DNA of 64,000 nt. It comes from Antennarius striatus. Taxonomy: Eukaryota; Chordata; Actinopteri; Lophiiformes; Antennariidae. Each line of letters starts with the position of its first letter. The stretch's first letter is position 1. The stretch spans positions 273,501 to 337,500 of the forward strand of contig NC_090783.1 of NCBI RefSeq assembly GCF_040054535.1. The letters are read 5' to 3'. The notes under the pieces were generated by a model, which did no database searches, was not told the origin of the DNA, and saw only the letters and a program-made list of their open reading frames with translations. The translations under genes and the position numbers were made by a program. This document shows positions 3,103 through 20,100 of this stretch, piece after piece.

Positions 3103-10562
<7,460 letters not shown>

Positions 10563-15099: not shown

Positions 15100-15620
15100 T
15101 CTGCGGGTCACGTGACCCCGTGCTGCCTTCAGGACCCTCTTCAGGTACAGCCTGTAACCCTGGAGCCGTGTGACGTCACTGGTTCGTGTTCAGCGTTCAG
15201 TGACGTCACAGCCTGCAGCTCTCGAGCCGCATCAGAGTGAACTGAACCCGTTATCGTCATGCGCCCCCAGAGGGCTTCTGGGTAGCTTTCAGTAGTCCGT
15301 TAGATCCGTTTGCTGACGTCAGTCCTTCTGAACCCGGTTCCACGTCACGTGAGTTTTGTCCGACGGTCCGTGAAGGCAGCGCGAGCTGTTCATTAGCGCG
15401 AGCGAGCGGCAGCTGGGCAGACCGGGAGCACCGGGACGCTCCGCAGTGACGTCACAAAGTAACGTGAAGGAGCGGCGGAGAAAAGTTTGTCCCGCAGAGA
15501 GGAGGAGGAGGAGGAGGAGGAAGAGTTCCCGCCATGGAGGAAGAGGAGGAAGCGGTCCCGAACGGAGGGAACCCCGACGCCAACAAAGAGGTGAGGCGGT
15601 CACGTGACCACCGGACTCTG
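15100..15620 (+). promoter_or_regulatory. tpcn3 5' region with CACGTG E-boxes and CRE
   Basis: GTCACGTGAC occurs exactly at 15107-15116 and 15600-15609 (just inside intron 1), and GTCACGTGAG at 15344-15353. A CRE-like TGACGTCA lies near 15314. The E-boxes match the CLEAR element bound by TFEB/TFE3 at lysosomal genes, which would suit an endolysosomal channel. CACGTG phrases recur elsewhere in the window, so this is suggestive only. Confidence 0.4.
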
Positions 15621-17065
15621 GAGCTCGAGTGACGCCATAAAACCTCCGCGCACGCGGGGCAGGAGGTCGGTCAGCTGATCGGTGATCGAACTGATCGATC
15701 TGGTCCTGTCTGGAGAACCGGAACCCCTGGGGGGGTCCGAGCCCTGTGGATGGACACGTGACGTCACCGCCCTGTGGCGTTCCACCGTTGCCTTAGCAAC
15801 CACAGATTTAACAGTTCTGTGAGCCAGCGCTGGTCCTTATCATTAGCTTTGGGCTGGCTCTGCTGTGTCGCAGCTTCTGATTGGACAAGCTGATCTTAGG
15901 TGCTACTCTGTTAGCATGTTAGCATGTGGTGTGTGTATTTCAGGATCTGGACCTGGCGTCTGCCTACGTGTCCGACGCCCAGTACAACAGGAACATCCAC
16001 TTCGACACGGCGCCGCCCGCCGTCAGGTGAGTCTGGAGCCACTAGCCGTTAGCCGTCAGGTGAGTCTGGAGCCGTTAGCCGTCAGGTGTGTCTGGAGCCA
16101 CTAGCCGTTAGCCGTCAGGTGAGTCTGGAGCCGTTAGCCGTCAGGTGAGTCTGGAGCCACTAGCCGTTAGCTGTCAGGTGAGTCTGGAGCCACTAGCCGT
16201 TAGCCGTCAGGTGAGTCTGGAGCCGTTAGCCGTCAGGTGAGTCTGGAGCCACTAGCCGTTAGCCGTCAGGTGAGTCTGGAGCCGTTAGCCGTCAGGTGAG
16301 TCTGGAGCCACTAGCCGTTAGCTGTCAGGTGAGTCTGGAGCCACTAGCCGTTAGCCGTCAGGTGAGTCTGGAGCCACTAGCCATTAGCCGTCAGGTGAGT
16401 CTGGAGCTGCTAGCTGATAGCCAGTAAGACGTTTCCAGGTTACTTGCTGTTTCTGACACTTTGGTCTCCAGCTATCGCTAACAGGTTTCAGCCACCAGGT
16501 GGAAGCTGTCAGACGAGCTGAGCTAATGTTAGCGATGATGCTAACGCTGAAGGCGTGGCCGTGTGTCCAGGCTCTACCTGCGCTACCACCACTGGCCCCT
16601 GAAGGTGCTGCTCTACGTCTTCATCCTGGTGGACCTGGGTCTGGCCGTCTTCGAGGAGCCGGCGGTCTTCCCGCTGCCCACCTGGGTAAGATGGCCGCCA
16701 GGGACTGGTGCCACGATCCCATTGGTCTGTTCAGGGCTCAAAGGGGTGTGGCTTCATCCTTAGGCTGGAGAGTATCAGAAACAGGAAACAGGAAGTACTT
16801 CAGTCCTGATCCTGAGATGAGGACTACTGGACTGCTAGCATGACCAGCGCTAGTTAGCTAGCTTTATTGAGTTCAGCAGGACGTGAGCTCTACGGTGAGA
16901 CGATGCTACATGCTAACGTGCTAACGTGTGTCCCCAGGCCACCCTGCTGGTGGAGCTGGTGTGTCTGCTGGTGTTCAGCGGCCGGCTGGTTCACTACGCC
17001 CGCGTCATCCCCCGGGACAAGTTCTGGAGGGACCCCAAGAACATCTGCATCATCATCATCCTCAT

Positions 17066-17105
<40 letters not shown>

Positions 17106-17114
17106 TTTGTGTGT

Positions 17115-17155
<41 letters not shown>

Positions 17156-20100
17156 GTGCTGACCGTTCACTTCTGGTTTCTGGACTTCCTGTTGTCGTCT
17201 GGTGAAACTGTCTGCTCAGCAGCTTCCAGTGGGAGGGGCTTCCTGGAGATTCAGACTACCAATCAGAGCGGTGCGTCTGTGCTGACGCTGCGTTTTAGAC
17301 GAGCGGTTTCTGTCAGGGGTGGAGCTGGACCCACACTGGACTGTCCTCAGCAGGGGGCGGGACCAGGTGTGAGCGGGCCCAGTGTGTGGTCTCAGGTGTG
17401 AACGTGTCTCTCTCCAGCTCACCCTGGTGGACATGATGGTGTATGGCGCCCTGCGGGCGTCCAACTCGAGTGCCGTCCGCTGGTCCCGAGTCCTCCGGCC
17501 GCTGCTGCTGGTCAACGTGACCGAGGGACGACAGGTAAGTCCCGCCCTGTTAGCGCCACGCCCTATTTGAGCCCTGGTGCTGCCTTCGGGGACCCGCGGT
17601 GCCTTCGGGGACCCGCGGTGCCTTCGGGGACCCGCGGTGCCCTCGGGGACCCGCGGTGCCTTCGGGGACCCGCGGTGCCTTCGGGGACCCGCGGTGCCTT
17701 CAGGGTCTGTGTGTTGCAGCTGCGCCGCGCCTTCAGGAGCATCAGGAACGCCGTCCCTCAGATCTTCTACGTCTTCCTGCTCTTCATGTTCAGCCTCCTG
17801 ATCTTCTCCCTCATGGCGCTGAAGCTGCTGGGGAAACGGTGAGACGACCTTTAACCCTGAACCTGCAGCGCCCTATGGACACACCCCTAACGTGTGTGTG
17901 TGTGTGTGTAGGGGCCTGACGACCATCAGTGGGGCGCCCTACTTCACGTCCTACCTGGACATCGTGTTTGACCTCTACGTCCTCGTCACCACGGCCAACA
18001 GCCCTGACGTCATGTAAGACCGGGCTCCGCCCCCGCCGGCCGGGCTCCGCCCCCGCCGATGCGTTCATGTCCATCTGTCGTTGTGCTGTCCGCAGGATGC
18101 CGGCCTACAACGCCAGCTTCGTCTTTGCCATCTTCTTCATCCTCTACATCCTCATCAACACCTACATCTTCATGTCCGTCTTCCTCGCCGTCGTCTACAA
18201 CAACTACAAGAAGTACCTGAAGGTAGCCCCGCCCCCGCCCCGCCCCTGAGCCTGGCGCTGCGTGTCTCAGGTGTGCTCGTCCCCCCAGGAGGAGGTCCGG
18301 CAGCTGGTGAGGGCCAAACGCCACAAGATGGTGCGGGCGTTCGCCGTGCTGCAGGAGCAGCGGCCGGGGGCGGAGCCTGTGGTGACCCGGGCCAGCTGGA
18401 CGCGGCTGGTGGGCCGGGTGCGGCCCGGCATCAGCACCGCCCACCGGGAGCTGCTGTGGAGCGTCTCCGACGACAAGAACCGGGGCTGCATCGGTGGGTT
18501 CAGGGCCGGCACGGCTGATTGGTCCCCACAGGGAACGCCCACCACCCATGGGCACGCCCACCACCCACGGGAACGCCCACCACCCACGGGCACGCCCACC
18601 ACCCACGGGCACGCCCACCACCCACGGGAACGCCCACCACCCACGGGCACGCCCACCACCCACGGGCACGCCCACCACCCACGGGCACGCCCACCACCCA
18701 CGGGCACGCCCACCACCCACGGGCACGCCCACCACCCACGGGCACGCCCACCACCCACGGGCACGCCCACCACCCACGGGCACGCCCACCAGCATAATTT
18801 CAATTTCACTTTAAAATTTCAATGTAAAATTTCACGATCTCAGTCTGGTGGCGCTGTGGGGGGGTTTTAATTCCTCGTCTCTGAATCTGGTTTTAGTTTT
18901 TCAATCTCGACGGTTTTTGCCGCCCTGAGTTCAGGCTGCAGGCTTCCTGTGTGCAGCCTGGCCGACGGCGAGCAGGGCACGACGAGCGGCGGTGCCTGAA
19001 CGCACCCTGAAGCCTTGTGTTCTTAGTTTACCTGCTGAGGCACTGAGAACACCTGACGTGGTTTATCATTGACGGGACACGCCCCCCACCAGGTGACCTT
19101 TAACCTGGCCTCATCTCATAAACACTCAGCCAATAGGAGCTGTCCGTTCCCAGCGGGTGGCGCCACGTCGTCTCGTTAAACCACCATTATCCAACATGGC
19201 CGACTTCCTGTTGGGTCAGGAGGGCGGGGCCCCCGGGGTCCGCTGCGGCGCCCCCTCCCCCACATTGACGCTGTTTTGATCGACAGGTAAGCTGGCTTTC
19301 GTCCAATTGGCCGACCTCCTGAACATCGAAGTCATCACCCTCAAGTCGAGGCCACACCCACTGCTCACCAGGTGCCCCGCCCTCTACCTGTCGGCCCCCA
19401 GCCGCCTGGTCTGCCGGCTGGTCCAGCACCGGTGAGGCCACGCCCCTGATGAGCAGATGTGAGAGGGCGGAGCCAGAGACGGCGTGAGGTCATGTGATGC
19501 CTCTGTCGTTGCAGGGCCTTCGTGGTGGCCTATGACCTCATCATCCTGGTGAACGCCGTGTTCATCGGTCTGGACGAGGACCACGCCCTCATCGCCCACT
19601 CCGAGTGGGCGTTCCTCGCCCTCTACCTGCTGGAGATCCTGCTCAAGCTCTACGTGGTCGAGCCGCGCGCCTTCTTCTCCAGACACTGCTTCTGGAACTG
19701 GTGAGATGCCTCCCCCCGCGGCATTCTGGGTAATCCCCTGGCCTAGTGCTGATGATGTCACAGTGATGTCACCACGTCAACAGGTTCGACACCATCATCG
19801 TCATCTCGGCGCTCGTCGCCACCGTCGTCAACTCCGCCTCCAAGTCACGTGAGTCTGGCTCCGCCTCCGTCCCGTGGCCCAATGGGCTTTAATGATGCGT
19901 AACGGATTGGCTCCTCCCCCAGTGGGCGGGTACAGCAGCCGTCAGATCCTGGACATCGTCTTCATCCTGCGTGTCCTGCGGCTGGTCCGGGTGGTGGACA
20001 GCATTCAGAGGTGCAACTCGCCTCCCATTGGCTGGGCCGTGCGTCACCATGGCAACAATGTTGATTGGCTGTCTTCTCTTTGGCCCCTCCCCCCCAGGTT

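Follow-up and report, generated by a model that had tools for sequence, protein, structure and literature searches.

The choice of the spliceosome among identical 5' splice sites has so far few natural examples, and intron 7 of human F7 is the clearest that we found. In that intron a variable 37-bp repeat carries the donor, and splicing under normal conditions relies on the most upstream 5' splice site alone (PMC6627357). We describe here an array of the same kind in tpcn3 of the fish Antennarius striatus, located in a stretch of 64,000 nucleotides (NC_090783.1, positions 273,501 to 337,500 of the forward strand; hereafter the window). The donor of exon 2 is the first of 13 donors of a minisatellite, part of the repeat unit derives from the exon, a stop codon meets every alternative donor, and further arrays in the genome start at exon ends with graded support. 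Other described systems share features with this locus. Tandem overlapping 5' splice sites are likewise competing donors near one exon end, yet they lie about 4 nt apart in what we have of their description (PMC2423196), while the tpcn3 donors are made by a minisatellite and are spaced by 26-33 nt. Intronic minisatellites in ABCA7 (PMC5954066) and TERT (VNTR6-1; PMC11830802) have likewise been linked to splicing; the available parts of these two reports do not describe a repeat that opens with the authentic donor, as the one in tpcn3 does. Among the matches listed from the open-access literature there was no genome-wide survey of donor-spanning minisatellites.

The tpcn3 minisatellite (Table 1) consists of 33-nt units, GCCGTCAGGTGAGTCTGGAGCCACTAGCCGTTA, and of 26-nt units that are the same sequence minus a 7-nt piece, with few private variants. 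Its 13 donors, 12 reading CAG/GTGAGT (CAGGTGAGT) and one CAG/GTGTGT (CAGGTGTGT), follow each other at 33 or 26 nt, so that 13 strong donor sites are packed into approximately 380 nt at the start of intron 2. Eleven of the 12 later donors are identical to the authentic one over 9 nt and the twelfth carries a single change. Within the window, counted on both strands, CAGGTGAGT occurs 14 times compared to 1.22 expected, a number that none of 100 shuffles reached, and all nine matches of the 22-mer GCCGTCAGGTGAGTCTGGAGCC in the 548-Mb genome are inside the tpcn3 array. Exon 2 closes with 8 nt (GCCGTCAG) that are found exactly ahead of donors 2-5; this is also the longest exonic match ahead of any of the 12 later donors. 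Since these exonic nucleotides are repeated in the array, the repeat unit reaches across the boundary between exon 2 and intron 2. Thus, Tandem Repeats Finder (TRF) and the motif positions confirm what a sequence-only reading of the window had claimed, a junction donor inside the repeat unit followed by 12 further donors.

Table 1. Features of the tpcn3 exon 2/intron 2 region (positions of the window).
Feature	Position	Strand	Remarks
Minisatellite, 33- and 26-nt units	16019..16422	+	TRF; junction of exon 2 and intron 2 inside the first unit, 8 nt exonic
Authentic donor CAG/GTGAGT	16024..16032	+	cut 16026/16027
12 further donors	16057..16400	+	11 CAGGTGAGT, one CAGGTGTGT at 16083
TGA read when donor 1 is bypassed	16029..16031	+	ends each longer isoform
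tpcn3 exon 1, coding	15534..15590	+	ATG at 15534, phase 0 end; joined translation
tpcn3 exon 2, 83 nt	15944..16026	+	phase 2 end (AG/G); zebrafish TPC3 alignment
tpcn3 exon 3	16571..16685	+	zebrafish TPC3 alignment
tpcn3 exon 4	16938-17066		part of joined stretch

By homology the gene is a TPC3 two-pore channel, collinear with TPC3 and equipped with an ion-transport domain. This identity rests on the first 352 residues, those obtained by joining the four exons from 15534 to 17066 with five more tpcn3 exons. The alignment to zebrafish TPC3 (6v1q, E 5.4e-166) covers residues 9-352. It contains two small insertions, one close to the join of exons 1 and 2 and the other within the last exon, and has no gap at the exon 2/3 join; the translation also matches Pfam PF00520 (Ion_trans, E 3.7e-24). 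The product is collinear with zebrafish TPC3 over the junction, which places the authentic cut at 16026/16027, and the gene name, the donor at 16026 and the acceptor at 16571 that had been read from the letters are correct by the same alignment. As to donor use, the homology tells no more than that donor 1 yields the conserved TPC3 protein. The joined stretch contains eight tpcn3 introns, and in two of them the donor is part of a tandem repeat. The second one is intron 4, where a (GT)46 microsatellite begins with the donor (ATG/GTGTGT; window 17066-17158).

Exon 2 ends in phase 2, and read-through past donor 1 consequently gives AGG TGA. The first stop is identical for all 12 later donors, the TGA after codon 47. 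Frame shifts at later donors are irrelevant, as this common stop comes first. By its reading frame, tpcn3 leaves a series of transcripts of the type subject to nonsense-mediated decay (NMD) as the only possible outcome of later donor use. The case illustrates a simple safety feature: according to the genetic code, whenever the donor of a phase-2 intron that opens with GTGA or GTAA is bypassed, translation runs into a stop (NNG TGA or NNG TAA).

Judged by its layout, the tpcn3 array joins the F7 intron 7 type of junction-spanning donor minisatellite, from which this layout was already known. The first copy holds the donor at which a coding exon authentically ends, 11 of the 12 downstream donors are identical to it and one carries a single change, and exonic sequence is included in the unit. 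The unit length differs, with 37 bp in F7 compared to 33 and 26 bp in the fish, and tpcn3 has an immediate in-frame TGA, unlike F7 intron 7 as far as the available part of its description goes. For F7, mutation of the first donor is reported to cause skipping of the exon or a switch to a donor further downstream. Furthermore, that source reports a variable repeat with established donor use, whereas the tpcn3 array is known from the sequence of one assembly.

We consider it quite probable that the tpcn3 array is a minisatellite founded by duplication of the junction, in which the first donor is used, the later ones are silent and the array as a whole is tolerated. A short junction-spanning segment, comprising the last 8 exonic and about 18-25 intronic nucleotides, would have been duplicated in tandem and then expanded into intron 2 through ordinary minisatellite turnover. 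The copies would retain a donor since the founder segment contained one. The repeated 8 exonic nucleotides, and the Ala-Val they encode, which is common to zebrafish TPC3, make it most likely that the exon was the source of the intronic copies. On the transcript, the first of the donors would define exon 2 and the 12 downstream donors would be silent pseudo-sites, so that only donor 1 would be used and 'first donor wins' would hold as in F7. Tolerance of the array would be plausible in that leakage to any later donor meets the in-frame TGA and would result in a truncated NMD-type transcript. What we infer here comprises the use of the donors, NMD, an origin by duplication and the lack of function. 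Concealment of the later donors by RNA structure is not supported: the predicted probability that the 9-mer is unpaired is low and scattered over the 13 donors (0.0001-0.018), and with 0.0007 donor 1 does not have the highest value. Predicted accessibility therefore does not single out donor 1, and position seems a likelier discriminator than structure.

Several points weigh against this reading. Experiments on competition between duplicated donors have reportedly sometimes favoured the intron-proximal sites, which would predict leakage. Past the consensus CAG the exonic match amounts to 5 nt, a coincidence of roughly 1 in 1000 by chance (4^5). The direction and the age of the duplication are presumed from one genome, exclusive use of donor 1 is itself what we infer, and four of the five junction arrays considered below have weaker gene evidence than tpcn3.

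Among the alternatives, a leaky array fares best, although we give it a small chance. Transcripts from later donors would hit the TGA and be degraded, and the array length would tune the tpcn3 level in the manner of an expression dial. Such a dial would have 12 later donors at its disposal, of which 11 do not differ from the true donor, and one stop common to all later isoforms, yet F7, as far as its description is available, normally uses the most upstream 5' splice site alone (PMC6627357). With its 13 strong U1 sites in some 380 nt, the minisatellite could also be thought of as a U1-recruiting array, serving as a sink, as a shield from premature polyadenylation or as a booster of exon 2 definition, which we regard as very improbable. 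One intron is unlikely to titrate a factor as abundant as U1, donor 1 is strong already, and a role in guarding against premature polyadenylation was rejected since a scan of tpcn3 intron 2 gave no AATAAA or ATTAAA that U1 would mask. A U1 decoy, a possibility raised by the sequence-only reading, is also unlikely in view of the closest known case, F7 intron 7, for which the available part of the source gives use of the most upstream donor only (PMC6627357). Still less credence is due to an assembly artefact in which the array was collapsed or expanded: the copy number is known from a single assembly, but the units mix 33 and 26 nt and carry private variants, and intact coding exons stand on both flanks. 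Finally, the length-polymorphic series of protein isoforms with repeat-coded residues that the sequence-only reading had envisaged is hardly conceivable for tpcn3, for while the added length is divisible by 3 at some donors (e.g. 2, 8 and 9) and an ABCB6-like array elsewhere in the genome is in frame at all four donors and free of stops, the shared TGA halts all 12 alternatives, which, barring readthrough of this stop, excludes the series by frame.

The junction layout is not restricted to tpcn3. Whole-genome pattern searches for three consecutive strong donors provided 26 arrays for examination, 14 from all 91 places of one search, 10 new ones from all 55 places of a second and two from an earlier one (C4:6265247 and C6:25922178); dispersed arrays of the 12/13-mer CAGGTGAGTCACA and the rest of the 279 places of the earlier search were left aside. 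A start at an exon end has some support in five of the 26, namely tpcn3 and arrays in a diacylglycerol kinase (DGK) gene and in EGF/stabilin-like, ABCB6-like and AFAP1-like genes. Thus, four of the 25 other arrays share this start, and the layout recurs in the genome. One array (L079) has no Pfam match, and its exon end is neither supported nor dismissed. In the other 20, a supported exon end was not seen by reading of open frames, without annotation or family search; five is therefore likely a lower bound. Of these 20, L073 looks like a coding repeat of the opposite strand, and L081 and L094 are on the acceptor side of apparent opposite-strand exons. In L094 (G000:C6:25922150-25922850) a 19-bp CAGGTGAGTCAGAGAGGCA-type array stands directly before the acceptor of an apparent membrane-protein exon, which we presume to be anoctamin-like.

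We do not claim that donor motifs are especially prone to form arrays. Comparisons of triple-motif with reversed-pattern matches point both ways (279 versus 71, 91 versus 70 and, strongly opposite, 55 versus 437), and these matches were counted per copy and not per array, so that the numbers do not compare arrays. In any vertebrate genome, real donors should account for a sizeable share of the strong donor motifs, and hence some arrays founded by real donors are expected without a special mechanism.

The DGK array (L071, G000:C6) follows an exon that ends in phase 2 (..KMLD R/WSIM..) and makes up most of a 620-nt intron. It holds 32 donors of the form AGGT[AG]A[GC], and all 31 later ones run into an immediate stop. 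The kinase identity comes from Pfam PF00781 (1e-8), which covers residues 9-50 of 87 and leaves the exon join uncovered; a PDB search gave a single match (E 0.94). By eye, another intron of this gene, from about 3627 in the oriented sequence, opens with a minisatellite of about 21 bp just after its donor. The AFAP1-like array (L091/L093), a name we presume, begins at a first coding exon with 9 donors, 27 exonic nucleotides in the unit and an open joined frame. Seven of its eight later donors meet a stop and the remaining one, donor 2, shifts the frame; Pfam and PDB gave no match. The ABCB6-like array (L088, G000:C12, 541-610) has three more donors after the exon end. Its four donors, 21 nt apart, are in frame with an array free of stops, which makes it the only one of the five junction arrays that keeps the frame at every donor, and the later donors would add VSHNQVE repeats. 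All six PDB matches are ABCB6 (E 0.11-0.2 on 25 aa), there was no Pfam match, and the stretch that was read showed no recognisable following exon.

The EGF/stabilin-like array (L080, G000:C22, minus strand) has 105 GT[AGC]AGT sites in a 3,066-nt intron (oriented 3916-6981). Of the 104 later sites, 101 lead to a stop and three meet none before the joined stretch ends, two of these three out of frame. The Pfam match to stabilin (E 3.5e-4, 21.3 bits with a cut-off of 27), obtained with non-adjacent pieces, was gone once adjacent exons were joined. The longer, correct join gave two general EGF families above the cut-off and EGF modules in PDB; the best stretches all lie past residue 59 and leave the join at residue 20 uncovered. 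The label stabilin is partly our presumption. Just 2 nt of the unit are in common with the exon. The intron consists largely of a 23-bp unit that starts with GTGAGT and ends with a pyrimidine tract and CAG or TAG, so that its boundaries resemble ratchet sites. Recursive sites are recognised by a pyrimidine tract followed by YAG that is joined directly to GTRAGT, and this array fits better than tpcn3. Its 104 sites after the first are preceded by CAG (63), TAG (38) or GAG (3), with at least 83% pyrimidine in the 12 nt before. At tpcn3 recursive sites were rejected, as the pyrimidine content of the 17 nt before each of the 12 array CAGs is only 53-59% and AG occurs in them.

Repeats also approach coding and splice boundaries elsewhere in the window. 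At 2639-2871 a 28-bp minisatellite begins at the coding end of a gene that we take to be calpain-like from reading the sequence, and the TGA stop is within the first copy. At 5521-5593 an array with a 16-bp AGACAGGTGAGC unit is on the acceptor side of an apparent minus-strand exon, an acceptor counterpart of the tpcn3 arrangement.

Tentatively, and with more doubt than confidence, we propose that these loci form a recurrent class of junction arrays in a repeat-rich fish genome. Within it, the EGF/stabilin-like intron might be a ratchet-like ladder whose internal splicing is silent and regenerates the donor, and the ABCB6-like array might give an in-frame VSHNQVE series. If true, nature would here have provided a series of experiments, variable in copy number, on how 5' splice sites are chosen. 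The tpcn3 array, presumably without a function of its own, would be a useful natural test of this choice. The genome appears to offer several such cases with differing unit lengths, copy numbers and intron phases, one of them frame-keeping, and RNA-seq of one species could test at several loci together whether the most upstream donor wins.
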